From Opitutaceae bacterium (GTDB lineage Bacteria; Verrucomicrobiota; Verrucomicrobiia; Opitutales; Opitutaceae), in NCBI GenBank assembly GCA_947474995.1, contig CANJNJ010000036.1, positions 1 to 38,930 of the forward strand: a stretch of DNA of 38,930 bases. Direction: 5' to 3'. Below are positions 5,866 through 32,835 of the stretch, piece by piece. Positions within the stretch are counted from its first letter, which is position 1, and every line of letters starts with the position of its first letter. Below the pieces are notes generated by a model. The model was given only the letters and a program-made list of their open reading frames with translations, did no database searches and was not told the origin of the DNA. Position numbers and translations under genes: made by a program.

Positions 5866-8835
5866 ATGATTCGATCGCAGACATTTCTCCGGAATCCAAT
5901 GCGTTTGGCGGCATGGTGCGTCGTCGCGGGCGTTGCTTCCCTTGCCGCCCAGACCGCGCCCACTGAAACGCCCACCGCCAGGGAAAAGGAGTCGGAAACC
6001 CAAAAACTCGCGCCGGTTGAGGTCACGGGCTCGCGAATCAAGCGCGTCGAAACCGAAGGACCTTCGCCGATCAAGATTATCTCGCGGGACGACTTGGAGC
6101 ACTCCGGTCGGGCCAGTTTGTCTGACGCGCTGCAGCAAATGCCGGAGGCGGGCTTTGCCGGGATCAACGAAAGCGGCACGACCTCGGCAGTCCGGGGCTC
6201 GTCGGCTTTGAACCTGCGCGAACTGGGCGCGAACAACACGCTGGTGCTCATCAATGGGCGGCGGGCGGTTCTGACCGGGCAGGGTGATTTGAACGGGACC
6301 GCCTTTGTCGATCTCAACCGGTTTCCCGTGGTGTTGGTCGAACGGGTCGAGGTGTTGAAAGACGGTGCCTCGGCCATTTACGGGGCCGATGCGACGGCCG
6401 GGGTGGTGAACGTGATTTTGCGCAAGGATTTCAAAGGGGCGGAAGTTGACGTGAATTTTGGGACCACCCGTGGGGCGACCGCCGGTGAAAAGAATTTTTC
6501 GGTGTTTTTCGGCACCGCCGCCGGCAAAATGAGTGCGACCGTGGGCGTGAGTTTCTACCAGCGAGGTGGTCTGCGGGCAATCGACACCGACTATGCGGCC
6601 AACGCGGACCTCTCGGCCCGTTATCTCGCCAAAGGTCCTCAGTACGCCGACCGGGTGGCCGAGGGCTTGTATGACCTTCGCTCCGGCACCGGCCCGCAGG
6701 CGCGCATCAACGGCGTCGCGGGCGCACCCATCAACGGCCAGAACGGCGTAAATATTCCCGGCCTGCAGCCCAATCTTCTCATTAGCCGGCTGCCCGGAAC
6801 AGGGGGCGTGGCGTCGGGACTGGGCTCCGTCGCAACCCCTTCGTTTACGAATCCGCCGCAGGTGGGAACGGGGGGCCAGTACAGCGCCGCGATTACCGCC
6901 ACCTACGTTCCGCAGCAACTCACGCCGCAAAGCAATCCGTCCAATCTCTACAACTATCAGCAGTGGGTCTGGCTGCTGCCGGAAGTGAATCGCCTCGGAT
7001 TGACGTCCGCCTTCCGCTACGACGTTTCGAAGAACCTCGAAACCTACGCCGAACTTTCCTACTCGCGGAACAAGTCGCACATCGAGTTCGCGCCGCCGCC
7101 GATCTCGACGGTGGACGACAACCAAATCGTGGTCCCGCGAACGAATTATTGGAATCCCTTCGGCGTCGATGTGCAGTTCCAATGGCGTCCGGTTGATTTC
7201 GGGGCGCGGAAATCGGACGTCTCGACCGAGACCGTGCAAGCCTTGATCGGAACCAAGGGGCGATGGCGGGAGCGGTGGGACTGGGACGTCGGTTTCACTC
7301 ACGGTGACGATCGGCATGAGGACGTCTCCTCCAACATGATTTCCGAGAGCCGGCTCCGGACGGTGCTCGCCCGCAGCACGCCAAATGCGCTGAATATTTT
7401 TGGCGGCGCCGGCTTCCGGAACGATCCGGCGGCCTACAATGAAATCCGCGTCTCTACCGTGGGTGGCGGGCACGCCGGACTGAACTTAGCCGACGCGAAG
7501 ATCGCGGGCGAACTGTTCGAAGGACCGACGGGGACGATTGGAGGCGCGGTTTATTCGGAATGGCGCAAGGAACTGTTCAGCGAGCGCAACGATGTGCTTG
7601 CCAGCACCCTCGATGACATCGTCGCGCAGGTCCGGTCCTCCGCGCCGAGCGACGCGCGGCGGACCGTGGGATCGATTGCCGCCGAGTTGCGCGTGCCGCT
7701 GATTAAGGCGGCGGATCGCCGCTTTCTCCTCAGGGCAGATCTCAGCGCGGCCGCGCGATTTGAAGATTTTAGCGACGGCTACGACAGCGGAGTTAAGCCC
7801 TATTTTGGTCTGCGCCTTCAGCCCTTGCGGGATCTGGTGCTTCGGGGCTCGGTGACCAAGGCGTTTCGGGCGCCCACGCTGCACCAACTTTACGGCGGCG
7901 AACGTCAGTCACTGCAGAACAACCTGCCCGACTACCGGCGGCCGCAGGCGCTCACCGGCGATCCCTTTGATGGGGTGGCGACCGAGCGACTCGTGCGCGC
8001 CGTGGGCAACCCGGATCTGAAGCCCGAGAATACGGATATTTTTCAATACGGTTTCGTCTACGACGTGCCGCTCAAGCCGCTGAAGGGCCTCTCCTTTGGC
8101 GCTACATTCTTTCACTACGATCAGCGCAACGTCATTACGACGCTCGGGCCGAGCTTCATCCAACTCAACGAAGTGGGCGGTGGCAGCGGCAATCTCGTCG
8201 TCCGCGACCCGACCCCGGAAGTTTACCAGAATCTTACGTCCTCACCGATTCCGATTCTGGTCGCTCCCTACCAGGTGGGATACCTCCTCCCGGGTCAGGC
8301 GTTTCGCGTCCCCGGTCGCATCCGCTACCTCCAGGATCAGGTCCTCAATCTCGCACGGCAGAAAGTCGAAGGCTACGATTTTGAGATCAATTATGTGAAG
8401 ACCTCGCCGAGCTACGGGCGTTTCAGTTTTCGCGCGGCCGCGTCCTATCTGTCGTTTTTCGACTATTCCTCGAATGAGGAACTGACCAATCGCGTCGCGC
8501 GGTTCGGTTTCCCGCGGGTGCGGATGCAGGCCAGCCTGCTGTGGACGCGCAAGGAATGGACGGCGGGCTTCCTCCAGAATTACACGGGCCGCTACGAGGA
8601 CTACGACCATGCCGGCTTCAAGGTGGACGACTACTCGACGACGGGTTTCTTCCTCGGATACGACATTCCGGCGGGTCGAATCCGCTGGGTGGAAAACATG
8701 CGGCTGACCTTCGGGCTCGACAACGCTTTCAACGCGAAGCCGCCGCTCTTCGACGGCCCCGTGGGGTACGATCAACGCTTCATCAGCCGTCCGGATGGTC
8801 GGTTCTGGTTTATCGGGCTGCGGCGCGCCTACTGA
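5866..8835 (+). CDS. TonB-dependent outer-membrane receptor (second copy)
   Basis: A 989-residue receptor. The signal peptide follows MIRSQTFLRNPMRLAAWCVV; an in-frame ATG at 5899 with a GGAA eight bases upstream is an equally possible start. The plug begins around VEVTGSRIKR, continues through GPSPIKIISRDDLEHSG and ELGANNTLVLINGRRA, and includes VEVLKDGASAIYGADATAGV. The barrel has NPDLKPENTDIFQYGF. It is related in architecture to the receptor at 184 but clearly diverged in sequence. It is transcribed away from the S9 peptidase, and the pair may share a regulated divergent promoter region. No SusD-like lipoprotein follows. The substrate cannot be read from sequence; peptides are a guess from context. 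Confidence 0.94.
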   Translation: MIRSQTFLRNPMRLAAWCVVAGVASLAAQTAPTETPTAREKESETQKLAPVEVTGSRIKRVETEGPSPIKIISRDDLEHSGRASLSDALQQMPEAGFAGINESGTTSAVRGSSALNLRELGANNTLVLINGRRAVLTGQGDLNGTAFVDLNRFPVVLVERVEVLKDGASAIYGADATAGVVNVILRKDFKGAEVDVNFGTTRGATAGEKNFSVFFGTAAGKMSATVGVSFYQRGGLRAIDTDYAANADLSARYLAKGPQYADRVAEGLYDLRSGTGPQARINGVAGAPINGQNGVNIPGLQPNLLISRLPGTGGVASGLGSVATPSFTNPPQVGTGGQYSAAITATYVPQQLTPQSNPSNLYNYQQWVWLLPEVNRLGLTSAFRYDVSKNLETYAELSYSRNKSHIEFAPPPISTVDDNQIVVPRTNYWNPFGVDVQFQWRPVDFGARKSDVSTETVQALIGTKGRWRERWDWDVGFTHGDDRHEDVSSNMISESRLRTVLARSTPNALNIFGGAGFRNDPAAYNEIRVSTVGGGHAGLNLADAKIAGELFEGPTGTIGGAVYSEWRKELFSERNDVLASTLDDIVAQVRSSAPSDARRTVGSIAAELRVPLIKAADRRFLLRADLSAAARFEDFSDGYDSGVKPYFGLRLQPLRDLVLRGSVTKAFRAPTLHQLYGGERQSLQNNLPDYRRPQALTGDPFDGVATERLVRAVGNPDLKPENTDIFQYGFVYDVPLKPLKGLSFGATFFHYDQRNVITTLGPSFIQLNEVGGGSGNLVVRDPTPEVYQNLTSSPIPILVAPYQVGYLLPGQAFRVPGRIRYLQDQVLNLARQKVEGYDFEINYVKTSPSYGRFSFRAAASYLSFFDYSSNEELTNRVARFGFPRVRMQASLLWTRKEWTAGFLQNYTGRYEDYDHAGFKVDDYSTTGFFLGYDIPAGRIRWVENMRLTFGLDNAFNAKPPLFDGPVGYDQRFISRPDGRFWFIGLRRAY

Positions 8836-8860
8836 ATAATCGGGAAAGAAACGGCGTGTT

Positions 8861-8927
8861 GGTAGTTCCGCCTTTAGGCGGAATCCGAGTCATTCAATCC
8901 TTCCGCCTAAAGGCGGCACTACGAACT
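8861..8927. repeat. TTCCGCC palindrome family, copy 1
   Basis: Two short palindromes (TTCCGCCTTTAGGCGGAA near 8867, TTCCGCCTAAAGGCGG near 8901) are themselves arranged as an inverted pair, GTAGTTCC...GGCACTAC. The folded element lies between the convergent ends of the TonB receptor and the GH20-like gene and could act as a bidirectional terminator. Its right end supplies the stop codon of the GH20-like gene. Related copies lie at 14264, 25331 and 29867. Confidence 0.85.
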
Positions 8928-10796
8928 CGGGCCCAAGCGGACTTCGATCGCATCGCGATTCCGTGTCCAGTCGAGCGCGGGCCAGCCCCGCAGCGGGACC
9001 GGCCGTCCGATGATTTTTCGGCGGAGGCGAAGGGGAAAGTGGGAGGTTCCATTGGTCAGGGCGACGTCCTCGAGCTTCACCTGCCCGAGCCCCCGCAATA
9101 CGAGCCGCAGGCGCGGCAGGGTTTGCGGCGAGCCGTCCCAGTCCACTGGGGCGGCGTGTTCCCGGCGCAAGCCCCCGTGCCGCCGGGCGGCGCGATTCTG
9201 GAATTCGTGGGTGTGGCACGCCTGGAGCGTTTCCCATTTTCCGTCCGGTCGCTTCTGCTCGACCGCGACCAGATGCGCCCCCGGTTGGAAGTTGTTCACC
9301 ACGTAACAAAGCTGCCACTTCGGCTCGAAGGCCGTCGGGTCCTTGAGTCGGGCGGCATCGGCGCGAAGGATTTCCTCGTTCGGCCCGTGAGTTCCCCGTT
9401 CTCGGGTCGAAGCCCACATGGCTTTCGCCGCCTGCTGTCCCGCCGCGATCGCCGCGGGTAAAGTCTCCCGCTCGTCCGCCGTGCGCACCGCGAGGTCGCG
9501 TTGCGCGAGATAGTGCCGGAATTCCACGCTCGTTTGCAGCGGCCCGGGCAGGGAAGTTCGTCCCTTCCGGCCGGTGCGCGCCAGCTCCCGAAAATATTTC
9601 TCTTCCCTCCGATATTCGCCCACGGATTCGCGCCGCGAAACCGTGTTCCAGTTGGAATTGATTTCCCACCGCGGATAGCCGCCAAAGGGAAACCGATCGC
9701 ACGCCAGCGCCACCTGGGCCGATCGCCGGGCGGTTTTCCGCCCAAACACCCGCGCGAAGCCGCGCTCGAGCATCTCCGCGGGCTCGCTCACACCGCGATC
9801 GAGCCAAAGGGAGGCGGCGGCGGCGTCGACGACAGTCGTCAACTCCAGCGCGAGGCGGTTCGGCTCCCAACTCGTCATCAGGAATCCGGTCGCGTTGAGC
9901 CGTTGGCAATGCCGCCACCACGAGAGGATGTTCTCCAGCCGGTCGCGAAAGTGCGGCATCGGTTCGTAGCGAAACGCGCCGTTCATCGGGCAGCCCCAGT
10001 ATTCGTTTCCTCGGGCGCACAGCCGTTCGCCGAGATCGCTTTCGACGTAGTTGAACAGCTCCACGCGTGGCCGCCGCGGGAAATTGTAGTAGTACCATTC
10101 GTAGACCGCGACGTCTCGCGGCAACAGCGGTACGGCGTCCGGCACAAAATAGAGCATGTCCGCCCACAGCCCCAGGTGCAGTCCTTGTTCCACGGCCAAT
10201 CCGCGCAGCTGATGGACGTAGGTGGCAAAGTGGGCCGCCCGTCCCCGTCGTCTTATGTCCGCGCGGCAGCGGGGACATTTGCCGAGGTGAAACGATTCAT
10301 CGAGGCCGACATGGACTTTCCCTGCGGTGCAAAAGGGCGCCATGTCGCGCAGCAATTTCTCGGCGACCTCGAGCGTGCGGGGATGGAGTGGGCAAATCTG
10401 TCCGCGCTCGAGCGGCGAGCCGTCGGGCGCGCGCAGTTCGTTGAGGTCGCGCAGTTCCGGGCGTTTGATCAGGTATTGGGTGTGCCCGAGGAGATTGACG
10501 ATCGGTACGACCTTGATGCCCGCCTTCGTGGCCGCGCTCACGAGACGTTGGAACTCGCGATAGGTGTAGGCGTCGGACCGCGCGACGCCGGGCAGGCTCG
10601 GATATTCGACGGCGTCCTCGAGGTGGAGGTAGAGCTCGTTGTAACCCCACTCGGCGTAACGGGGAAGTTGGGCCAGTAGCCAGTCGAGCCGTTCGACCTG
10701 CCGCGCCAGATCCCATTGGAAGCCGAGGTTTTTGCGCTGCAAAAACCTGGTGGATTTCCCGCCGGGGGCGGAAAATTGGGGATCGGTCAAAGGCAT
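8919..10796 (-). CDS. Glycoside hydrolase family 20-like protein
   Basis: A 625-residue protein without a signal peptide. The ATG at 10796 is set by a GAGGA Shine-Dalgarno seven bases upstream. A TIM-barrel-like region starts at GFQWDLARQVERLDWLLAQL (residues 25-44) and includes NLLGHTQYLI and VHVGLDESFHLGKCPRC. Asp166-Glu167 matches the catalytic Asp-Glu pair of GH20 beta-N-acetylhexosaminidases, and Cys174/Cys177 follow at once, which is not a general GH20 feature. The C-terminal part (after about residue 500) looks like a beta-rich accessory domain. It may cleave N-acetylhexosamine residues, or be a GH20-related enzyme of other specificity. Residues of about 6-24 are encoded by a palindromic repeat, and the stop codon lies in another. 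It is divergent from the MOSC gene. Confidence 0.72.
   Translation of the reverse strand: MPLTDPQFSAPGGKSTRFLQRKNLGFQWDLARQVERLDWLLAQLPRYAEWGYNELYLHLEDAVEYPSLPGVARSDAYTYREFQRLVSAATKAGIKVVPIVNLLGHTQYLIKRPELRDLNELRAPDGSPLERGQICPLHPRTLEVAEKLLRDMAPFCTAGKVHVGLDESFHLGKCPRCRADIRRRGRAAHFATYVHQLRGLAVEQGLHLGLWADMLYFVPDAVPLLPRDVAVYEWYYYNFPRRPRVELFNYVESDLGERLCARGNEYWGCPMNGAFRYEPMPHFRDRLENILSWWRHCQRLNATGFLMTSWEPNRLALELTTVVDAAAASLWLDRGVSEPAEMLERGFARVFGRKTARRSAQVALACDRFPFGGYPRWEINSNWNTVSRRESVGEYRREEKYFRELARTGRKGRTSLPGPLQTSVEFRHYLAQRDLAVRTADERETLPAAIAAGQQAAKAMWASTRERGTHGPNEEILRADAARLKDPTAFEPKWQLCYVVNNFQPGAHLVAVEQKRPDGKWETLQACHTHEFQNRAARRHGGLRREHAAPVDWDGSPQTLPRLRLVLRGLGQVKLEDVALTNGTSHFPLRLRRKIIGRPVPLRGWPALDWTRNRDAIEVRLGPSS
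10726..10780. repeat. GGTTTTTGC double-hairpin repeat, copy 1 (inside a coding region)
   Basis: Perfect hairpin AGGTTTTTGCGCTGCAAAAACCT (in two arms, 10726-10748), followed by a second GC-rich palindrome TTTCCCGCCGGGGGCGGAAA. It is translated as part of the N-terminus of the GH20-like protein. It is inverted relative to copy 2 at 10851 and related to copy 3 at 13216. Confidence 0.8.
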
Positions 10797-10850
10797 CGTT
10801 GTCCTCGATTGATGAACTGGCGATGACGGTCGTTCAAGGGGCAACGAACC

Positions 10851-10904
10851 CGGGGATTTTCCGCTCGCGGAAAATTCCGTTAGGTTTTTGCGTAGCAGAA
10901 ACCT
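10851..10904. repeat. GGTTTTTGC double-hairpin repeat, copy 2
   Basis: A slightly decayed copy: the palindrome GATTTTCCGCTCGCGGAAAATTC precedes the imperfect hairpin AGGTTTTTGCGTAGCAGAAACCT, each arm pair being partly mismatched. It is oriented opposite to copy 1, so the two bracket about 70 bases that hold the GH20/MOSC divergent start region. Its last base is the first base of the proposed MOSC start codon. Confidence 0.75.
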
Positions 10905-11395
10905 TGGTCACGATCCGCCACATCCTTATTTCACCCGGCCATAATTATTTTGGCCGCTACGGTGAACCACCGGGCGAGCATCCGATGCGCGAGGTCACGG
11001 CCGTTTCGTGTCGGGCCGGCTGGGGACTCGAGGGCGATCGCTTTTATGGCTATCGCCCCGGCTACCGCGGCCAGGTGACGTTCTTTGGTTGGGAGACCTG
11101 CTTGGCGGCCCGGAAAAAATTCGGCGCACCCCAGCTCTCCCCGATGGCATTTCGGCGGAATGTGGTCCTCGAAGGGATCGACCTGAATACGTTGATCGGC
11201 CGCCGGTTCGTGCTCGGGGGCGTCGAATTCGAGGGCACCGAGGAATCGCGTCCGTGCCACTGGATGAACGCGGCCGTGGCGCCGGGCGCGGAGGATTGGC
11301 TGCGCGGGCAGGGCGGCCTGCGCGCGAAGGTTCTCAGCGACGGCCCGCTCGAGGCGGGTCCGGTTGGGCTATGGCTTTCTCAGGAAGTTGCCTAG
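10904..11395 (+). CDS. MOSC-domain protein
   Basis: A 163-residue protein of the MOSC (molybdenum cofactor sulfurase C-terminal) family, whose members bind sulfur-carrying or molybdenum cofactors. The core reads ISPGHNYFGRYGEPPG, then GLEGDRFYGYRPGYRGQVTF, then EESRPCHWMN, with a Cys in the usual place near the C-terminal end of the domain. Relatives begin with a Met shortly before the IRHIxISPGHN stretch, which points to the TTG at 10904. An ATG at 10823 is also in frame, but the 27 residues it would add are encoded by repeat copy 2. The gene is divergent from the GH20-like gene and its end overlaps the convergent cca gene by 27 bases. The substrate is unknown. Confidence 0.78.
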   Translation: MVTIRHILISPGHNYFGRYGEPPGEHPMREVTAVSCRAGWGLEGDRFYGYRPGYRGQVTFFGWETCLAARKKFGAPQLSPMAFRRNVVLEGIDLNTLIGRRFVLGGVEFEGTEESRPCHWMNAAVAPGAEDWLRGQGGLRAKVLSDGPLEAGPVGLWLSQEVA

Positions 11396-16405: not shown

Positions 16406-17128
16406 TCACGAAATAAACATGCGGGAGTCCGCGGATTCATGGCGGGCCGCGGCGATGTCGAGCCAGGGGTTGAACCAGCCGATGTCTTCGAAGGCAGTGG
16501 CTTGGGCCTCGGCGATGAGGGCCGGGGCCGCGGCCAGCGATTCCGTCAGCAGCGTTTGGCTGGCGTTCTGGCCGAGCCGCAGCAGTTTCATCGCGGCCGA
16601 AATGAGCGCGGCGAGTGTGGCGTAAGTGATGCCGGCCAGAACGGCGGGGAGGGGCGCGCCGAGGATTCGACCTTCGAGGGCCGCTGACACCGACGGAGTA
16701 AACGGCCACTGGGCCGCGGCGGCTTGGAGCAGATATTCGCGAGCGAGCGAATGTTCGCGCAGGGTTGCGACGAGTTCGGCCCGCTGGCGTCCGATATTTT
16801 CGGCCGCGACCCGCGCTTCGCGGGCGGTCTTGAGCGCGGAGGAGAGCACGCAAAGCTCACGCACGCGCGGCCAGTCGGGCGGGGCGAGCGCGCGCCACGC
16901 GTGGGCCGCGAGCGGCAACTCGACGTGACGCAGCGTGGGGAGCGCCGAACCTCGGATAAACTGCCGCAGGGTGGCGCGGTCGCGCACGACATTCTCATGG
17001 ACCAAACCCTCGAGCCCGAAAGAGTGGGCGTAGCTGCCGGTCGGATAGAATGAGTCGCCCGCCTGCAGGAGTCCGCAGAACCAGGTGACGTCGCCGGCCT
17101 CAGTGTTTATGGCTGGTGCCGAGCTCAT
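16406..17128 (-). CDS. ureF: Urease accessory protein UreF
   Basis: A 240-residue helical protein that regulates UreG within the UreD-UreF-UreG complex. It has QAGDSFYPTGSYAHSFGLEG near the N-terminus, the diagnostic UreF stretch, followed by LREHSLAREYL and the C-terminal segment with FNPWLDIAAARHE. I chose the ATG at 17128 over one 24 bases upstream because it begins nearer to the conserved core. Its start overlaps the end of ureE by 29 bases on the same strand, an unusually long overlap that supports translational coupling. The ureG gene follows after a repeat. Confidence 0.95.
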   Translation of the reverse strand: MSSAPAINTEAGDVTWFCGLLQAGDSFYPTGSYAHSFGLEGLVHENVVRDRATLRQFIRGSALPTLRHVELPLAAHAWRALAPPDWPRVRELCVLSSALKTAREARVAAENIGRQRAELVATLREHSLAREYLLQAAAAQWPFTPSVSAALEGRILGAPLPAVLAGITYATLAALISAAMKLLRLGQNASQTLLTESLAAAPALIAEAQATAFEDIGWFNPWLDIAAARHESADSRMFIS

Positions 17129-17564
17129 GCGTGGGTTGTTCGCCGCGGGCAAACCGGCCCGGGCGAAAAATCGCGGTGGTGGCCGTGAAGGGCACCTTGA
17201 GCCGCTCGAGCAATTGCCGGACGGCCGGCTCGTCGGGAGCGAGCAGGCGCGTCGCGTCGGCCGAAAGTTCGAGATGAAGATTGCCGATCGCCCAGCCGAT
17301 GCCCGCGGCGACGGAAGGCGCGACCGCCAGCGAGATTTCGATCACCGGCTCGGCGTGCTGGTAAACGACGTAGCGCTGCGCGGCCGATTGCCAGAAGGTG
17401 TCCCCGTTCTTCAGCGGCGCGGATAACTCGAAGCCAAATTCCGTTCCGTCTTCCGCGGTTCCCCGCCACAGCCGTTTCGCGAGTGTCATCCGCTCCACGC
17501 GCAAAGCGGCTTCCGGCAACCTGGCGTCGGGTTGGGCAATCGCGGTATGGATGAGTTGTGGCAT
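17100..17564 (-). CDS. ureE: Urease accessory protein UreE (nickel chaperone)
   Basis: A 154-residue metallochaperone that supplies nickel for the urease active site. The N-terminal domain (MPQLIHTAIAQPD through RLWRGTAEDGTEFGFEL) and the ferredoxin-like C-terminal domain (AIGNLHLELSADATRLLAP) fit UreE. The conserved metal-binding His of the family corresponds to the one in GNLHLE. The C-terminus ends THELGTSHKH, a short His-containing tail rather than the long His-rich tail of some homologues. It leads the accessory group; 278 bases separate it from the divergent DUF1080 gene. No promoter is convincing in that spacer. Confidence 0.92.
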   Translation of the reverse strand: MPQLIHTAIAQPDARLPEAALRVERMTLAKRLWRGTAEDGTEFGFELSAPLKNGDTFWQSAAQRYVVYQHAEPVIEISLAVAPSVAAGIGWAIGNLHLELSADATRLLAPDEPAVRQLLERLKVPFTATTAIFRPGRFARGEQPTHELGTSHKH

Positions 17565-17842
17565 CGTTGGTCTGAACTGGAGCACTTCCTTTCGGTCGCT
17601 GGAAGCAGGGATTGGTCCAATTGGAGGAGTACTTCAGTGAAAGCGATGGCGAGTATTAGGGGATGAATGAGCTGCGTCCCGGATTCTTCTCGCAGCGGCT
17701 GGGGGGGGCGTCATCCGTACCAGTGATTCCGGCGGCGTCGGTTGTTTCGCAGGCCAGCGCATGGTGTCTCCGTCGCGTATGCGTGGCCGTGTTCGTTCCC
17801 CTTTTCAGTTCATCGCAAGTCACTCAAATATCCTCCTCCCCT

Positions 17843-18595
17843 ATGACCTTACGTCGAAATGCGGCACTTCTGGCGGTCGCTTTGATTGTTGGTGGCAATT
17901 CGTGGCTTCGCGCCGACGACAATGTTCTCACGCCGGCGGAGAAGACCGCGGGTTGGGAATTGTTGTTTGATGGTCGCACCCTGGCGGGCTGGCGCGGCTA
18001 TGGGATCAAAGAGGTTCCGCCTGGTTGGGAAGTTAAGGACGGTTCGCTGCGCTCCGTGGTTGTTGGGCCCGATGCCAAACATCTGAGCGGGGCGCATCCC
18101 CAGGGCATTGATCTCATCACCATCCGGAAGTTCACCGACTTCGATCTGACTTGGGAGTGGCGCATCGGCTACGGCGGCAACAATGGGATAAAATATTTCG
18201 TCACCGAGGCGCGCCCATCCGCGCCCGGACATGAATATCAGGTCATGGATGACGTGGGCGACCCTTCCCGCCCGTGGCGGGGTGAGGTTCACCGCCTGGG
18301 TTCATTTTACGATGTGGTGCCGCCGGCGGCCGACAAGCCGATGCGGCCGGCGGGCGTGTGGAACACCTCGCGGATTGTCGTGCGCGGCAACACCGTCGAA
18401 CACTGGCTCAACGGCGTGAACGTGGTGGTTTACGAGATTGGCAGTGCAACGGTCAAAGCGGGGCTCGCTCACAGCAAATACAAGGATGAGCCCGGATTTG
18501 GTGAGAAGATTACCGGCCACATTCTCCTGGTGGCCACGACCCAGCCCGGCGGTGAGTGCTGGATCCGCAACCTGAAGATCCGGGAGTTCAAGTAA
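17843..18595 (+). CDS. Exported DUF1080 (3-keto-disaccharide hydrolase domain) protein
   Basis: A 250-residue exported protein with the concanavalin-like fold of DUF1080. The ATG at 17843 gives a signal peptide (MTLRRNAALLAVALIVGGNS). Family landmarks are GWELLFDGRTLAGWRGYG, GWEVKDGSLRSV, DFDLTWEWRIGYGGNNGIKY, GHEYQVMDD and WNTSRIVVRGNTVEHWLNG. Members of this family hydrolyse 3-keto-glycosides in systems where a sugar is first oxidised at C3. It opens a plus-strand cluster with a cytochrome c, a propeller protein, a TonB receptor and a second DUF1080 gene. The frame is open upstream to 17663, but that part does not look like family sequence. Confidence 0.9.
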   Translation: MTLRRNAALLAVALIVGGNSWLRADDNVLTPAEKTAGWELLFDGRTLAGWRGYGIKEVPPGWEVKDGSLRSVVVGPDAKHLSGAHPQGIDLITIRKFTDFDLTWEWRIGYGGNNGIKYFVTEARPSAPGHEYQVMDDVGDPSRPWRGEVHRLGSFYDVVPPAADKPMRPAGVWNTSRIVVRGNTVEHWLNGVNVVVYEIGSATVKAGLAHSKYKDEPGFGEKITGHILLVATTQPGGECWIRNLKIREFK

Positions 18596-18646
18596 GCCAC
18601 CGGGGTGAAGGTTCACCCGCCTGCGTCAATCCTCCTCCTCGCCTCG

Positions 18647-19720
18647 ATGCCCCCCCGCCTTTTTGCTTTTGTTCTGTGCGTCGTCTCCTGCGCGGGCCGT
18701 GCCGCGCCGACCGGTATGATCACGTACGACACGCGGCCGCACGGCACCGTGGCCGCGCCGCTCATTTTGCGGACTTATCTCCCGGACCCCGGGCTCGGCG
18801 ACGTGGTGATGTCCCACCATGGGAAGGGCTCGAAGACCTCGGAATACAGCCCGGAAATCGGCGCCGACGTGGCCGGGGAAGTAATTCCGCTCGCGGGTGT
18901 GCCGGCGGCGATTGCCGTCAACCACGGGCCCGAACTTTCGTATGTGTTCGACACGACCGAGGGGCGGCTCCTCTACGCGTGGCGGGGCGGTTTCCTCGAC
19001 ATGTACCCGTATTGGGGCGTGAAAGAAATGGGGACGCGCCTGTATGACTATGTTCCCAAGTTGGTCGGGACTCTTTTTTATAAAGCGGCCGGCAAGCATC
19101 CGATCGAGATTGATGGCCGCAGTGTTTCGGAGGACGGAGCGCCTCGGTTTGTCGGCTACGACCTCGTGGACTCGCAGCCCACGTTCACCGTGCGCCACGG
19201 CTCGCATCTGGTGCACACGACGGTGCGGCCGGTCACCGGGCAGAACGCCTTTCGCGTGGAATTCAAAGTGGAACCGGCCGGCGCCGTCGCCTACCGCGCC
19301 GAGTCTTCCGGGCTCGACGTTAAAACGGTCTCGAAGGGCAACGGCACGCTCGTGTTGACCATCGCGGGTCCTTCGCTCGGGGCCTTCGAAGGCTACTCGC
19401 GCAAGGTGACGATCAAGGAGGCGAGCGCGGCGGCGGGTGAGCAGTTCTACCGCAATTACGGTTGTGCGGTCTGTCATTCGACCGACGGCTCAATGGGTCA
19501 CGGTCCTTCTTGGCTCAATCTCGCGGGACACGAGCGCACCCTGCTCGACGGTTCGAAGGTCATGGCGGACGACGCCTACCTGCTCGAGTCGATGAAGAAT
19601 CCGAATGCGAAAATTCTCCAGGGCTTCGCCCCCAATTTCATGCCGCCTTACAGCCAGCTCGGCGACCTGGAGTACCAGTCGCTGATTCTCTACATCAAGT
19701 CGCTTCGTCCCGGACGGTGA
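18647..19720 (+). CDS. Exported protein with C-terminal cytochrome c domain
   Basis: A 357-residue exported protein. The ATG at 18647 begins a signal peptide (MPPRLFAFVLCVVSCAGRAA); a GTG at 18605 is an alternative. Residues of about 25-250 form a non-heme beta-rich domain containing VVMSHHGKGSKTSEYSPEIG, IAVNHGPELSYVFDTTEGR and LLYAWRGGFLDMYPYWG, a type seen in planctomycetal and verrucomicrobial cytochromes linked to propeller proteins. The C-terminal heme domain has one CAVCH (273-277), with Met332 in NFMPPY a likely axial ligand. It probably passes electrons from a periplasmic oxidation. It starts 51 bases after the DUF1080 stop, and a GTG of the next gene overlaps its stop codon. Confidence 0.85.
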   Translation: MPPRLFAFVLCVVSCAGRAAPTGMITYDTRPHGTVAAPLILRTYLPDPGLGDVVMSHHGKGSKTSEYSPEIGADVAGEVIPLAGVPAAIAVNHGPELSYVFDTTEGRLLYAWRGGFLDMYPYWGVKEMGTRLYDYVPKLVGTLFYKAAGKHPIEIDGRSVSEDGAPRFVGYDLVDSQPTFTVRHGSHLVHTTVRPVTGQNAFRVEFKVEPAGAVAYRAESSGLDVKTVSKGNGTLVLTIAGPSLGAFEGYSRKVTIKEASAAAGEQFYRNYGCAVCHSTDGSMGHGPSWLNLAGHERTLLDGSKVMADDAYLLESMKNPNAKILQGFAPNFMPPYSQLGDLEYQSLILYIKSLRPGR

Positions 19721-19764
19721 CGCCGCCGCGACCGCTCCTGCGTCCCAAGCCACCCCTCTGCTCC

Positions 19765-21276
19765 GTGCATCCTCGAATCTTATTCTGCGCCGCTTCGCTG
19801 GTCACTCTCCTCGCTGGAATGCTGCCGGCCGCCCCGATGGCGGATAGCTACGTGGTCGAGGATATCCCCTTTCCGGCCGACGTGGCGGCCGAAGTCGGCG
19901 GGATTGGCTTCGATGCGAACGGGTTGATTTATGTGGGCCTGCGGCGGGGCGATGTGCTCACGGCCATGCCGACCGCCGACCCGGCGAAATTTGACTGGAA
20001 GGTTTTCGCGACCGGTTTTGACAATACGGGTGGGGTGATCGTGACGGCCCCCGGTCGAATCGTGGTGGCGCAGATGCCTGAACTGACAGAAGCCACGGAC
20101 ACCAACGGTGACGGCCGAGCCGACCGTTACCGCACGCTCAGCGACGCCTGGGGCCTTTCGGGCAACTACCACGAGACCACGGCGCTGACGACGGATGGCC
20201 ACGGCGGCTACTTCGTTGCGCTCGGCACGGCCTCGCATCGTTCGCCCACGTTTGTTTATACGCGGGGTGAATACTCGGCCATCGGTCGCCGGGGGCGCAA
20301 TTTCTCGGCCCTCAAGTACCGGGGCTGGACCATGCACGTCAAGGCGGACGGCACCACGGAACCGTACTCCTCGGGCTTCCGCGTGCCCAACGGGATATTG
20401 TACGATGACGAGGGCAATCTCTGGTCGAGCGATAATCAGGGCGACTGGAAAGCGACGACGCCGCTCTATCTTTTGCAGCAGGGAAATTTTTACGGTCACC
20501 CGAGTAGCCTGGTCTGGGATTCGAAATGGCCGGCGGAAAAGGATCCTCTCGCCACGTTTCGCGCGGACCTTGCCGCTTACAACAAGATGCGCACCTATGC
20601 GTCGGTCGAGGTGCCGTACCTGGAACTCCTTCGCTCCGGCTCCCAGCCGATCCAGATTCCCCGTAACGGCGCCTTCGGCCCGTTCGGGGGGCAGATCCTT
20701 CTGGCCGATGCCGCCAGCAAGCACATCGCCCGAATCATGCCGGAGAAAGTCGACGGCGAGTATCAGGGCGGGGTCACCCTTTTCATCAACGAGCAGGGAT
20801 TGCGCGTGAGCAACAACCGCCTGGCGTTTTCCCCCGACGGCCGGAGCCTTTACGTGGGGCAGACCTCGCGCGGCTGGGGTGCGACGAGGGGAACGGATAC
20901 CGAGGGGATGCAGCGCATCTCCTGGCATGGAACGGTGCCGTTCACCATTGAGAAGATGAACATCACTCCCCGTGGTTTTCGACTGACCTTTACCGGGCCG
21001 GTCAATGCGGCCGCCGCGCAGGCCTCCGGCTACGCCGTCAATTCCTACACCTATCAATCCCGCTGGGTCTACGGCGGCGATCCCGAGAATGCGCGTGACC
21101 ATGCCGTGGCTGAGGTCAAGAGCATCGATCCGCGGACCGTGGAAGTGGTGATCGATTCCTTTCTGCCGGGTCGGGTCTACCATCTACGCTTGGCGGCGGC
21201 GGTCACGAGCGCGACCCGCGAGGCGCTGTCCCACCCGGATTACTATTACACCGCCAATCGGATTCCCAAAGACTGA
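19765..21276 (+). CDS. Exported six-bladed beta-propeller protein, dehydrogenase-like
   Basis: A protein of about 503 residues with a signal peptide (h-region LFCAASLVTLLAGMLPAAP). No ATG fits; the GTG at 19765 is chosen, and a GTG at 19717 overlapping the upstream stop (GTGA) would add 16 residues. The body resembles the soluble glucose/sorbosone dehydrogenase-like propellers of this phylum: EVGGIGFDANGLIYVGLRRG, DTNGDGRADRYRTLSDAWGL (a calcium-binding DxNxDGxxD loop), then SGFRVPNGILYDDEGNLW and FSPDGRSLYVGQTSRGWG. The C-terminal 100 residues form an Ig-like segment. Coupled to a cytochrome c gene, it is a candidate periplasmic sugar oxidoreductase, though no cofactor site could be verified. 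Confidence 0.82.
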   Translation: MHPRILFCAASLVTLLAGMLPAAPMADSYVVEDIPFPADVAAEVGGIGFDANGLIYVGLRRGDVLTAMPTADPAKFDWKVFATGFDNTGGVIVTAPGRIVVAQMPELTEATDTNGDGRADRYRTLSDAWGLSGNYHETTALTTDGHGGYFVALGTASHRSPTFVYTRGEYSAIGRRGRNFSALKYRGWTMHVKADGTTEPYSSGFRVPNGILYDDEGNLWSSDNQGDWKATTPLYLLQQGNFYGHPSSLVWDSKWPAEKDPLATFRADLAAYNKMRTYASVEVPYLELLRSGSQPIQIPRNGAFGPFGGQILLADAASKHIARIMPEKVDGEYQGGVTLFINEQGLRVSNNRLAFSPDGRSLYVGQTSRGWGATRGTDTEGMQRISWHGTVPFTIEKMNITPRGFRLTFTGPVNAAAAQASGYAVNSYTYQSRWVYGGDPENARDHAVAEVKSIDPRTVEVVIDSFLPGRVYHLRLAAAVTSATREALSHPDYYYTANRIPKD

Positions 21277-21366
21277 TCGGCCGTCGCCGATCTGGGAGCC
21301 CGAGGCGAGCGATCGAATGTCCAAGTATACAATCAGAATAAGCCCAATCAAAACCCACTTACTATC

Positions 21367-23700
21367 ATGATGAGTTCTCGTATTACCTTTAGCGCAGATG
21401 GGCATGGCGCGCGTTCACGGCGCGCGCTGACTCTTGCGCTCTGCCTTGTCAGCTGCGCCTTGGTGCCGGCTTATGCGCAAACGCCGGCTGCGTCGCCGGC
21501 CAAAGGCGCGGGCGACGTCGTCGCGCTCCCGGCGTTCCAAGTGGCGTCGTCGACGGACGACAGTTTCATCGGCAAGGAGGCCATGAGCACGACGCGCACG
21601 GGTGTGGCTATCGCTGACCTCGCGCAGTCCGTCGTCGTCGTGAACAAGGAATTTCTCAACGACCTGCGTCCGGAATATATCGCCGACATCATGAAATATG
21701 TCGGTGGCGGACAGACGGGAACCCTGACTTGGACCGGTTCAACGCGCTACATGATGCGCGGCTACACCACCGAGGGCGACTTCACGGACGGTTTCAGGAT
21801 GCCGTCAGGAAATACGAATTTCAATTTCGTCGACCACGTCGAAATCATCAAGGGACCCTCGGCCATCTTCGTTACCAACTCGGCCAACACGGTGGGCGGC
21901 ATGGTCAACAAAATCGCCAAGGCGCCGACTTCCTACAAGGTCGGCACGCTGACCGTGGAAGCGGCGATGTTTGACCGGGGCGGGGCGGACCTTGATATCG
22001 GCGGCCCGATTACGGCCGACAAAAAGTTCCAATATCGGCTGCTCCTGAGCGACGTTGATTTCAAGCGCTACTATGACGCCGGTTACGACAAGCGGTGGTC
22101 GATCAGTCCGATGTTCGCTTATGATTTCGGCCCGGATAGCCGGGTGTGGGTCAAGATGGAGAAGTTCGACCACGACTACTCCGCCTACAACGGCATCGCG
22201 ATCGATGGTCGGACCAACAAACTGGCCGCAGTATCGAACAAGAATAACTTGAATGAGGACGCGCCACTGAACTGGCGCAAAGACGCGTTCGAACGAATTT
22301 GGGGCCAGTTCACCACCCGACCGTCGGACTTCCTGGCCGTCCGCATTGCCGCTCTCGCTTACACGGCACCTTCGTCCCGGATTGAGTCCATTGCGTCGCC
22401 GGTTGGCGCAACCAATCCGACGCTGCAAGCGAACGGTAATTGGATTTTCACTCCCTACGCCCAGTATACCATTCCCCCCAATTATGTCGCGGGTCAGTTG
22501 ATCCCTCGCATCACCCAGGCCGACAAAGTGTTTCGGCCGGGTCGCGAAGTGCAGAACGATTATATCTTCAGCTTCAACACCGGGCCAGTGAGCCACAAGC
22601 TGCTCATCGGCGGCGTTGCCCGGCAGGACATCCAGACCAACCATAGCTATTCCAGCGGCGGCACGAGCACGGCCACCAGCAGTTCGATCGACCCGTTCAA
22701 CCCGAAATTTCCTGGTACGGTCACGGTGAATCTCAACCAACCGCCCGTCAATTTTCAGGAACAGGATAGCGTCTTCTTCAAGGGGTTCATCCTCGATACC
22801 CTGAGCTTCATGAAGGATCGCGCGATCTTCACCTTCGGCGTGTCGCGCAATCGGTTTTCCCAGTCGTCGACGTCGCAGGACTACAACCAACGGACGGGAG
22901 TCTACGCGACGCCCGTGAATGTACCGGCGACCATTCTGAACAAGAGCCTCACGCAGTACAGCATTCTCCTCAAGCCACTGCCCAATGTCTCGGTGTTTTA
23001 CGGGTACAACGTGAATTTCGCCGCGAACCCCATTCAGTTTGGGCAATTTTTGCCGCCGCAGGAAGGCAAGCAATCGGAGTTTGGTTTTAAGTCCAATTGG
23101 CTGGGCGGTCGGCTCAACATTGCGGCCAATTACTTCGACATCCAGCAACTCAACAACAACGTGCAGCCCTTTCCGCAGACGGTGCCGCCGAGTTTCCTGC
23201 TCATCAACGGCGTCCTCTCGAAGGGCGTGGATGGGGACATCTCCTTTGCCGTGAACGATAACCTGCTTTTCATCGCTTCCTTTGCGGTGTTCGACGCGTC
23301 GGCTGCCTTGCGCTCACCGTGGAGCGTCACCCCGATGCCGTCTGATGGGCAGAAGCACGCCACTTTGCCGGTCAACAATGTCTCCGAAAAGAATTTCTCC
23401 CTGTGGGGCCGCTACAAGTTCACCACTGGGCCGGTCAAGGGACTCTCGATTGGCGTCGGCCTGAACACGTTGTCGAAGCGCGCGATCACCGACAACGCGA
23501 ACCAGATTCTTTACGGTTACGTTCCGGGCTACGGCTTGGTCGACGCGAATTTCAACTACGAGACCAAGCGCTTCAAGTACCAGCTGCGGATCGATAATCT
23601 CCTGAACAAGAAGGATTATTTCCATGCGGTCCGCAGCAATCAGGTCATGCTGCCCGGCTTCCCGACCAACGTTGGCGGGGCCATCATTTACAAGTTCTAG
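21367..23700 (+). CDS. TonB-dependent receptor of the siderophore-receptor type
   Basis: A 777-residue outer-membrane receptor. Two adjacent ATGs (21367, 21370) are possible starts; a signal peptide leads to an AYAQ cleavage site near residue 38. The plug starts at GKEAMSTTRTGVAIADLAQS and contains YIADIMKYVGG, YMMRGYTTEGDFTDGFRMPS and HVEIIKGPSAIFV, features shared with FhuE/FcuA-like receptors. The barrel ends with GGAIIYKF. In Opitutaceae such receptors also sit in saccharide clusters, and here it lies between the propeller gene and the second DUF1080 gene, so a sugar-related substrate is as likely as a siderophore. It is followed 27 bases later by DUF1080, probably one operon. Confidence 0.93.
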   Translation: MMSSRITFSADGHGARSRRALTLALCLVSCALVPAYAQTPAASPAKGAGDVVALPAFQVASSTDDSFIGKEAMSTTRTGVAIADLAQSVVVVNKEFLNDLRPEYIADIMKYVGGGQTGTLTWTGSTRYMMRGYTTEGDFTDGFRMPSGNTNFNFVDHVEIIKGPSAIFVTNSANTVGGMVNKIAKAPTSYKVGTLTVEAAMFDRGGADLDIGGPITADKKFQYRLLLSDVDFKRYYDAGYDKRWSISPMFAYDFGPDSRVWVKMEKFDHDYSAYNGIAIDGRTNKLAAVSNKNNLNEDAPLNWRKDAFERIWGQFTTRPSDFLAVRIAALAYTAPSSRIESIASPVGATNPTLQANGNWIFTPYAQYTIPPNYVAGQLIPRITQADKVFRPGREVQNDYIFSFNTGPVSHKLLIGGVARQDIQTNHSYSSGGTSTATSSSIDPFNPKFPGTVTVNLNQPPVNFQEQDSVFFKGFILDTLSFMKDRAIFTFGVSRNRFSQSSTSQDYNQRTGVYATPVNVPATILNKSLTQYSILLKPLPNVSVFYGYNVNFAANPIQFGQFLPPQEGKQSEFGFKSNWLGGRLNIAANYFDIQQLNNNVQPFPQTVPPSFLLINGVLSKGVDGDISFAVNDNLLFIASFAVFDASAALRSPWSVTPMPSDGQKHATLPVNNVSEKNFSLWGRYKFTTGPVKGLSIGVGLNTLSKRAITDNANQILYGYVPGYGLVDANFNYETKRFKYQLRIDNLLNKKDYFHAVRSNQVMLPGFPTNVGGAIIYKF

Positions 23701-23727
23701 TCGAATTCGAAACCAAATTTGCTCCCC

Positions 23728-24366
23728 ATGAATTCACGCCTTCTGTCCGTGTCTCGTTTCGCCCTGTTCGCCGCGATCGTTGCGGTCGGCTCCTTCGCCT
23801 CCTCGGCCATGGCCGAGGAGCCAAAGTTCGTCCCGCTGTTCAACGGCAAGGATTTCACCGGCTGGAAGCTGCCCGAGCCCAACTTGAACTGGAGCGTCCG
23901 GGAAGGAGTCCTGGTCGGCAACAGCGAGGAAAAGCTGCGCGGCAGCAATCTCTGGACCGTAAAAAGCTACGGTAACTTCATCCTCGATATCGACGTGAAG
24001 TGCGAGGGCCCGGAAATCGACACCGGCGTGGACCTGCGCACCCCGAGTTTCCAGCTGCAGATGGGCGTGTCGCGCAGCCTGAAGCGGGACATGACCGGTT
24101 CCTGGCTGACCGACGGCAAGGGTGACCCGACCCGTTATCCCGAGTCCGGCCGCGCGAACGACTGGGAGAAATACTTCAAGGCGGGCGATTGGAATACCTT
24201 CCGGATCGAGGCACGCGGCAACACGTTCACAGCGTGGCTCAATGGCCACAAGATTTCCCAATACACGAGTGACCGCTATGCCCAGCCGGGCCCGATCGGC
24301 CTGCAGTTTCACGACACGCTCAAGATGAAGCTGGGCTTCCGGAACATCCGAATCGCGGAGCTGTGA
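23728..24366 (+). CDS. Exported DUF1080 protein (second copy)
   Basis: A 212-residue exported DUF1080 protein. The ATG at 23728 begins a signal peptide (MNSRLLSVSRFALFAAIVAV) ending at AMAEE. The domain begins at FVPLFNGKDFTGWKLPEP and continues with NLNWSVREGVLVGN, FILDIDVKCEGPEIDTGVDL, QLQMGVSRSLKRD, WNTFRIEARGNTFTAWLNGH and GLQFHDTLKMKLGFRNIRI. It is shorter than the copy at 17843 and differs in the central substrate-facing strand, so the two probably have different specificities. It ends the plus-strand cluster and is followed by a GC-rich hairpin. Confidence 0.92.
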   Translation: MNSRLLSVSRFALFAAIVAVGSFASSAMAEEPKFVPLFNGKDFTGWKLPEPNLNWSVREGVLVGNSEEKLRGSNLWTVKSYGNFILDIDVKCEGPEIDTGVDLRTPSFQLQMGVSRSLKRDMTGSWLTDGKGDPTRYPESGRANDWEKYFKAGDWNTFRIEARGNTFTAWLNGHKISQYTSDRYAQPGPIGLQFHDTLKMKLGFRNIRIAEL

Positions 24367-24466: not shown

Positions 24467-25129
24467 ATGTTCATTGGACACTATGCGGTGGCCTTGGCCG
24501 CCAAACGAGTGGCGCCGACGGCGTCTTTGGGCCTGCTCTTTGCGGCGGCGCAGCTGCCGGATCTGGTCTGGCCGGTCTGCGTGCTACTGGGCTGGGAGCA
24601 CGTTGGGATTGTCCCGGGAATCACGGCCTTCAACCCGCTGGAGTTCTCTTCTTATCCGTGGTCGCACAGCCTGCTCATGGTCGCGGCCTAGGGCACCGGG
24701 GCGGGCCTGGTTTATTTTCTCTGGGCGCGCGATCGCGCCGGGGCCGTGATGGTGGGTCTTCTGGCGGTGAGTCACTGGGTGCTCGATTGGGTGACGCACC
24801 GACCGGATTTGCCGCTCTGGCCGGGTGGAGCGGGGCGTTTTGGATTGGGACTCTGGAATTCAGTCGCCGGCCCGCTGGTGATTGAAAGCGGAATGTTTAT
24901 TGCCGGCATCGTGGTTTACTTTCGCTGCACGCAGCCGAGGGACCGGACGGGGCGTTACGCGATGGGGTCATTGCTGGCGGTACTGACTTTCTTCTACCTC
25001 GCCGACCGTTTCGGCCGGCCGCCGCCGAGCGAACAAGCGTTAGGTTGGTTCGCGCTCGTGGGCGGCTGGCTGCCGGTGGCGTGGTCGGACTGGGCCGACC
25101 GGCACCGGGTCACGGTTTCGGTGCGCTGA
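24467..25129 (+). pseudogene. Membrane protein gene interrupted by one in-frame TAG
   Basis: A 220-codon reading frame starting MFIGHYAVALAAKRVAP, broken only by TAG at 24689-24691, between SLLMVAA and GTGAGLVYFLWARDRAG. Both halves are in the same frame and read as one multi-helix membrane protein. The His and Asp pattern (FIGHY, QLPDLVW, YPWSHS, HWVLDWVTHRPDLP) resembles YdjM-like membrane-bound metal-dependent hydrolases. A Trp codon (TGG) at the TAG would fit, as relatives have a Trp-Gly here. The break could be a recent nonsense mutation, a sequencing error or, less likely, readthrough. If translation stops, the first product is a 74-residue fragment (24467-24691). The upstream ATG at 24425 is in frame but outside the conserved start. 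Confidence 0.78.

Positions 25130-31065: not shown

Positions 31066-32835
<1,770 letters not shown>

Follow-up and report, generated by a model that had tools for sequence, protein, structure and literature searches.

We analyzed a 38,930-nucleotide stretch of DNA from an Opitutaceae bacterium (assembly GCA_947474995.1), hereafter the window, which is one entire contig (CANJNJ010000036.1) of a 5.24-Mb, 261-contig genome, and found in it a pair of genes that recurs in four bacterial phyla and probably encodes a redox enzyme. The pair consists of a cytochrome c protein (D, a letter that also denotes its N-terminal domain) and a six-bladed propeller protein (P), and lies within a run of five plus-strand genes at 17843-24366 that encode, in order, DUF1080-A, D, P, a TonB receptor, and DUF1080-B. 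We propose that P and D form a periplasmic sugar dehydrogenase with a tethered electron carrier, probably making 3-keto-glycosides for the DUF1080 proteins, and give this proposal roughly even credence. The five-gene set is local, with recognizable counterparts in the nearest relatives only; deep conservation is limited to the D–P pair.

Relatives of P were drawn from 95 related genomes and from named genomes, the latter searched with a 10-sequence alignment. They occur in Verrucomicrobiota, Lentisphaerota, Planctomycetota, and Bacteroidota (four from Bacteroidota), and the propeller is borne by cultured relatives in Roseibacillus, Luteolibacter, Pelagicoccus, Larkinella, and Pedobacter. In 114 of the 122 cases, profile searches of the DNA around each propeller placed D immediately 5' of P. 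Five of the eight propellers without a D call (loci L031, L043, L098, L111, and L119) either extend to a contig end or begin very close to one; for L045 an earlier profile did detect D, L048 holds a distant propeller, and the last case, at 9412-10941 (–) of L033, is a second propeller lying tail to tail with a complete D–P pair. This obligate pairing is accompanied by a strict rule for the electron carrier: 112 of the 114 pairs have exactly one, of one type and at one position, and no pair has two. The carrier comes in six layouts, most often as a C-terminal monoheme domain on D (55 pairs, window included) and otherwise as a C-terminal monoheme domain on P (23 pairs), an N-terminal monoheme domain on D (14 pairs), an N-terminal cupredoxin on D (14 pairs, all four from Bacteroidota among them), an N-terminal multiheme domain on D (5 pairs), or a C-terminal cupredoxin on P (1 pair). 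The remaining two pairs are accounted for: L061 has a frame break, with its CxxCH motif in another frame, and L099 has a gene cut by its contig end. On a quick tree of the propellers, the layout changes at least 13 times and switches between heme and copper at least six times, and the starred branches by themselves force four changes for the cupredoxin group. The repeated swapping-in of an unrelated carrier, with one always left, is our best indication that redox chemistry is the function of the pair.

The window's D protein has the marks of a monoheme cytochrome c. Its heme-binding residues, together with M332 (codon 19640-19642), are invariant in 44 sequences, and M332 is presumably the axial heme ligand. 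In the predicted structure (predicted local distance difference test [pLDDT] 83.5), the cytochrome domain resembles 1w2l (Z 12.4), while the N-terminal domain gave weak structural matches only (YidC P1, Z 8.0, and galactose-mutarotase-like proteins). The family DUF6797 (PF20601) did not match the window's D, relatives scoring 18 to 21 bits against a cut-off of 24.9, and a literature search found no paper naming that family.

For P, an AlphaFold2 model based on a 60-sequence alignment reached a pLDDT of 92.3. The first Foldseek match to the model was the AA12 domain of the Coprinopsis pyranose dehydrogenase (4.6e-12), and the first 16 entries in the VIA list were all sGDH, Asd, or AA12 proteins (Z 26.8-29.5); the other propellers scored no higher than 24.0. 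The model thus predicts for P the six-bladed fold of sugar dehydrogenases that use pyrroloquinoline quinone (PQQ). Family scores were low by comparison: P matched PF23500 (DUF7133) weakly, PF07995 (GSDH) gave no match for the window's P and weak ones under the cut-off for its relatives, and the TIGR02604 (PVC-type heme-binding) score of 41.3 bits fell below the cut-off of 122.2. Sequence searches of the Protein Data Bank (PDB) with P were dominated by designed Pizza propellers and otherwise gave weak matches to 3das, 7cdy, and 2g8s.

To place the active site, residues of P were mapped onto Escherichia coli Asd (YliI) by hhalign, whose probability of 63% makes the mapping a guide only. The counterpart of the catalytic base, His136, is kept in 115 of 116 aligned propellers, and Arg206, the counterpart of the Arg that activates the quinone, in all of them. 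A DNQGDW loop, aligned beside the NEHGPRGGDE loop of YliI, is similarly conserved (G226 in 116, D223 in 112, and W228 in 105 of 116). The region of the residues holding the PQQ carboxylates (sGDH Lys377 and Arg406/408 or their AA12 substitutes) was left unaligned by hhalign; Arg352 (103/116) is a candidate, and Lys377 is also missing from AA12 (PMC6881789). A reading made earlier from the sequence alone (hereafter the sequence-only reading) had drawn attention to a calcium-type DTNGDGRAD loop in P. The loop is real and, being conserved family-wide (D112 in 116, D116 in 110, G117 in 113, and D120 in 108 of 116), not due to chance, but it is separate from the cofactor-holding residues of known enzymes, and the evidence for a cofactor comes from the His/Arg pocket instead. 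Much longer propellers, of about 800 to 990 amino acids, occur in many Opitutales, Lentisphaera, and others (L094, L096, L097, L101, L103, L104, L106, L108-L110, L114, L116, L118, L122, L124, and L125), and all four long propellers scanned (L032, L090, L122, and L124) have a C-terminal DUF6807 domain.

We counted neighboring gene families at 92 loci and compared matches within 3 kb of the pair (near) with those in the 3- to 8-kb flanks of the same loci (far). The commonest neighbor was AP_endonuc_2, a TIM barrel resembling xylose isomerase, with 34 near and 3 far (p = 1e-8), and DUF1080 was also enriched (13 near vs. 2 far, p = 0.002). Because the loci are partly related and several near matches belong to related loci, these p values err on the optimistic side. 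The TIM barrels are on the same strand as the pair in 32 of the 34 cases. Their nearest solved relatives are ketose 3-epimerases and a 5-keto-gluconate epimerase, followed at lower rank by a 3-keto-D-glucoside 4-epimerase and a DgpC-type protein. In the window and at L036, L048, and L056, a DUF1080 gene immediately precedes D on the same strand. DUF1080 is also fused to members of the pair, to P as two domains (L112) and to D as DUF1080-PA14-D (L042); other fusions join D to CBM6 and LamG (L036) or to a TIM barrel (L084). Judged by sequence families, the neighbors and fusions suggest a role with keto-sugars.

Gfo/Idh oxidoreductases were considered as the usual partner of the pair and rejected, since a narrow model built from one seed showed no enrichment beside it (5 near vs. 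6 far, p = 0.66), a result that would follow if the pair took the place of that oxidant. The lack of a 3-dehydrogenase in the cluster, on which the sequence-only reading had leaned, holds for the window, which has no Gfo/Idh or GMC gene, but proves little because the genome encodes 51 Gfo/Idh and 7 GMC matches (and 42 of AP_endonuc_2). A XylR-like regulator, combining a sugar-binding domain with an AraC-type helix-turn-helix, stands beside 15 pairs, mostly upstream and divergent (among them L039, L041, L069, L073, L075, L078, L079, L081, and L083), and hints at sugar-controlled expression. In several Akkermansiaceae (L055, L057, L059, L062, L069, L120, and L129), genes for a DUF1552 protein and a diheme protein form a two-gene unit convergent to the pair.

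Both DUF1080 proteins of the window scored far above the cut-off of PF06439 (3keto-disac_hyd; 128.6 bits for DUF1080-A and 112.5 for DUF1080-B against 26.8) and are assigned as predicted 3-keto-glycoside hydrolases. The PDB relatives of DUF1080-A are 4jqt, 3hbk, 8rr2, and 8v31, the first of which is also the nearest for DUF1080-B. One DUF1080 protein has been reported as a 3-ketotrehalose hydrolase (PMC9007349). The family has 27 matches in the window's genome and is very numerous in Planctomycetes (PMC5673643).

The propeller and cytochrome had been suggested before as a redox pair outside the cytoplasm, and the PQQ-dehydrogenase fold, the retained His and Arg, the single carrier in each complete pair, and the keto-sugar neighbors all support this. 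In the mechanism that we infer, P would act in the periplasm to oxidize a glycoside or an oligosaccharide, with His136 accepting the hydroxyl proton and the hydride passing to a bound cofactor near Arg206 and a metal. The heme tethered through D would then receive single electrons from the cofactor and relay them to the respiratory chain. At this locus the product would probably be a 3-keto-glycoside, to be cut by one or both DUF1080 proteins, and the TonB receptor may import something serving the system. More generally, and as a tentative extension that we think somewhat doubtful, the pairs may represent a third, carrier-linked route to 3-keto-glycosides, in which a periplasmic dehydrogenase of the sGDH fold, using another cofactor or a novel mode of PQQ binding and passing electrons to an exchangeable tethered heme c or cupredoxin, feeds DUF1080 or keto-sugar TIM barrels in the four phyla named above.

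Several observations weigh against the proposed C3-oxidizing dehydrogenase. The position after Arg206 is never N or D in the 116 propellers: the Asx of the Arg/Asx dyad at the PQQ ketones (sGDH Asn229), a dyad about 94% conserved in AA12 (PMC6881810), is absent. PqqC was not found in the window's genome, nor above the cut-off in any of the 95 relatives or, in a phylum sample of 241 genomes, in any of the 15 that bear the propeller. This negative is meaningful because the model scored well above its cut-off in five propeller-free genomes of that sample; PqqE matches were all below the cut-off, as in all control genomes. Local PQQ synthesis was rejected on the absence of PqqC across the propeller genomes searched, and PQQ would therefore have to be scavenged, as E. 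coli and fungi use PQQ that they do not make (PMC6881810), or the cofactor is something else. The same fold also serves lactonases and structural roles, the literature that we searched contained no assay of a D–P enzyme, and the relatedness of the loci, which flatters the neighbor statistics, counts on the same side, as do two further points taken up with the alternatives to which they belong.

The most serious alternative is an ordinary six-bladed quinoprotein dehydrogenase that acts on aldoses (at C1) or alcohols with scavenged PQQ, and with which DUF1080 shares regulation and substrate and not the product. The sGDH-type enzymes are indeed described as oxidizing C1 and not C3 (PMC6881810), the fold match is strong, and the scavenging of PQQ has the precedents just cited. 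The missing Asx speaks against a conventional enzyme of this kind, however, as do the resemblance of the neighboring TIM barrels to keto-sugar epimerases, including the 3-keto-D-glucoside 4-epimerase, and the fusion and clustering with DUF1080, findings that accord better with a keto-sugar than with a lactone; on balance we consider this alternative unlikely. Improbable in our estimation is an enzyme for another substrate, such as a sulfated sugar, a polyol, or a lactone, with the window's DUF1080 proteins acting as plain glycosidases or binding modules. It draws on the sulfatases near 15 loci, on the fact that DUF1080 is near a minority of the pairs only, and on the proposal of DUF1080 homologues as xanthan glycosidases that overlap the carbohydrate-binding family CBM66 (PMC5673643); the fold, the TIM-barrel neighbors, and the carbohydrate-binding fusions still indicate sugars, and a DUF1080 protein has, as noted, been reported to hydrolyze 3-ketotrehalose.

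A nonenzymatic propeller, with P and D forming a carbohydrate-binding or scaffold complex and the cytochrome serving general electron transfer, would fit the weak family scores of P, the many nonredox roles among six-bladed propellers, and the weak structural matches of the D N-terminal domain. Such a complex would have no need for exactly one carrier in every complete pair, with layouts that alternate and include copper, and the pocket His and Arg are near-invariant, which makes it quite improbable.

Compared with known systems, the dehydrogenase proposed here is close in architecture to the fungal Coprinopsis pyranose dehydrogenase (CcPDH), a six-bladed quinoprotein with a tethered cytochrome, built from an AA8 cytochrome b, an AA12 PQQ propeller, and a CBM1 (PMC6881789). 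The two share the propeller fold (6jt5, Z 27.9) and a tethered carrier of single electrons; some members have carbohydrate-binding modules, and the host does not make the cofactor (for P, on the assumption that it is PQQ). The D–P pair is bacterial, and unlike in CcPDH its carrier is a heme c or a cupredoxin, usually on the partner protein, the Arg/Asx dyad is lacking, and a D domain goes with nearly every propeller; the pairing, the swappable carriers, and the missing Asx set it apart from AA12-AA8. Bacterial sGDH/Asd proteins (PF07995; E. coli YliI) have the same fold and the active-site His and Arg, whereas P has a partner D and an additional C-terminal domain, lacks an Asx following the Arg, and shows PF07995 similarity that is weak and confined to relatives. 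The TIGR02604/DUF7133 PVC-type CxxCH proteins (PVC, Planctomycetota–Verrucomicrobiota–Chlamydiota) have a related propeller and occur in PVC bacteria, and TIGR02604 is named for a heme-binding motif, but P is a distinct family that pairs with D and lies far under the TIGR02604 cut-off.

As a pathway, a close parallel is the lactose 3-dehydrogenase LacABC of Caulobacter, for which periplasmic oxidation of the disaccharide and hydrolysis by DUF1080 have been proposed, with the genes adjacent (PMC9007349). The idea of a heme-linked 3-keto pathway outside the cytoplasm, put forward in the sequence-only reading, is partly supported and is strengthened in its redox pair. Its scheme of oxidation followed by DUF1080 hydrolysis had already been proposed; what would be new here is the oxidant. 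Unlike the window locus, LacABC has no propeller. LacA is of the flavin GMC kind. The Agrobacterium O-glycoside and PUE C-glycoside deglycosylation operons likewise place oxidation beside keto-sugar TIM barrels but use a flavin or NAD oxidoreductase with a TIM-barrel eliminase (PMC10628242). In a literature search that was weak on subscription journals, we found no paper on the D–P pair and none joining DUF1080, Verrucomicrobia, and cytochromes.

The features of the locus are listed below. The five genes have the order, strand, and families first described for them, with intergenic gaps of 51, 44, 90, and 27 bp, and all five proteins are predicted to be exported, each having a signal-peptide-like N terminus as judged by eye from the sequence. 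DUF1080-A is probably the first gene of the unit because the urease accessory genes upstream of it are divergent. Promoter-like and terminator-like sites were no more frequent across the region than expected by chance, and cotranscription of the five genes is no more than plausible.

Features of the five-gene locus, in coordinates of the window
Feature	Position	Strand	Evidence
DUF1080-A, 3-keto-disaccharide-hydrolase-family protein, 250 amino acids	17843..18595	+	PF06439, E 3.8e-37
D protein, N-terminal beta domain and C-terminal monoheme cytochrome c	18647..19720	+	PF00034, 3.7e-6
D N-terminal beta domain	about 18758-19381	+	
D C-terminal cytochrome c domain	about 19418-19711	+	
Heme c site CAVCH, Cys273/Cys276/His277 of D	19463..19477	+	Invariant, n = 44 sequences
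P, six-bladed propeller and C-terminal beta domain, 503 amino acids, GTG start	19765..21276	+	Model, structure matches
Calcium-type loop DTNGDGRAD, P residues 112-120	20098..20124	+	Conservation, n = 116
His136 of P, counterpart of sGDH catalytic base His144	20170..20172	+	115/116; aligned to GNH of E. coli YliI
Arg206 of P, counterpart of sGDH Arg228	20380..20382	+	116/116; aligned to Arg of YliI IRNPQG
DNQGDW loop, P residues 223-228, located where PQQ enzymes have the cofactor-metal loop	20431..20448	+	Conservation and alignment
TonB-dependent receptor, siderophore/metallophore type, 777 amino acids	21367..23700	+	Plug PF07715, 2.4e-6
DUF1080-B, 3-keto-disaccharide-hydrolase-family protein, 212 amino acids	23728..24366	+	PF06439, E 3.3e-32

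The TonB receptor is classed by sequence with siderophore or metallophore receptors (TIGR01783 at 1.6e-36, under the cut-off; nearest PDB entries CntO/FoxA) and lies outside the conserved module. We considered it as a PQQ importer and found nothing in favor beyond its siderophore-type family. The nearest named relative at the locus is an Opitutus metagenome-assembled genome, found in the search of named genomes, and the receptor and second DUF1080 gene were seen again in the same order only in a close relative (genome G016, locus L031). At 8321-10521 (–) of L031, the receptor gene is split over three frames, reflecting a broken gene or assembly errors.

The urease genes of the window are split, with ureE/ureF to the left of the locus (16406-17585, –) and ureC about 13.5 kb to the right (31066-32835, –); between them lie the five-gene locus, a 2-hydroxyacid dehydrogenase, a P-type cation ATPase, and a response regulator. 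Just 3' of the locus, at 24469-25129 (+), the gene for a YdjM-like membrane protein is apparently broken by an in-frame stop near 24691.

Few makers of the 3-keto substrates for DUF1080 are known in these phyla. If our proposal is right, a widespread dehydrogenase would channel electrons to the respiratory chain from the oxidation of sugars in the periplasm and would explain part of the abundance of DUF1080, and the six-bladed quinoprotein-like enzymes would be extended to a new pairing with swappable carriers.

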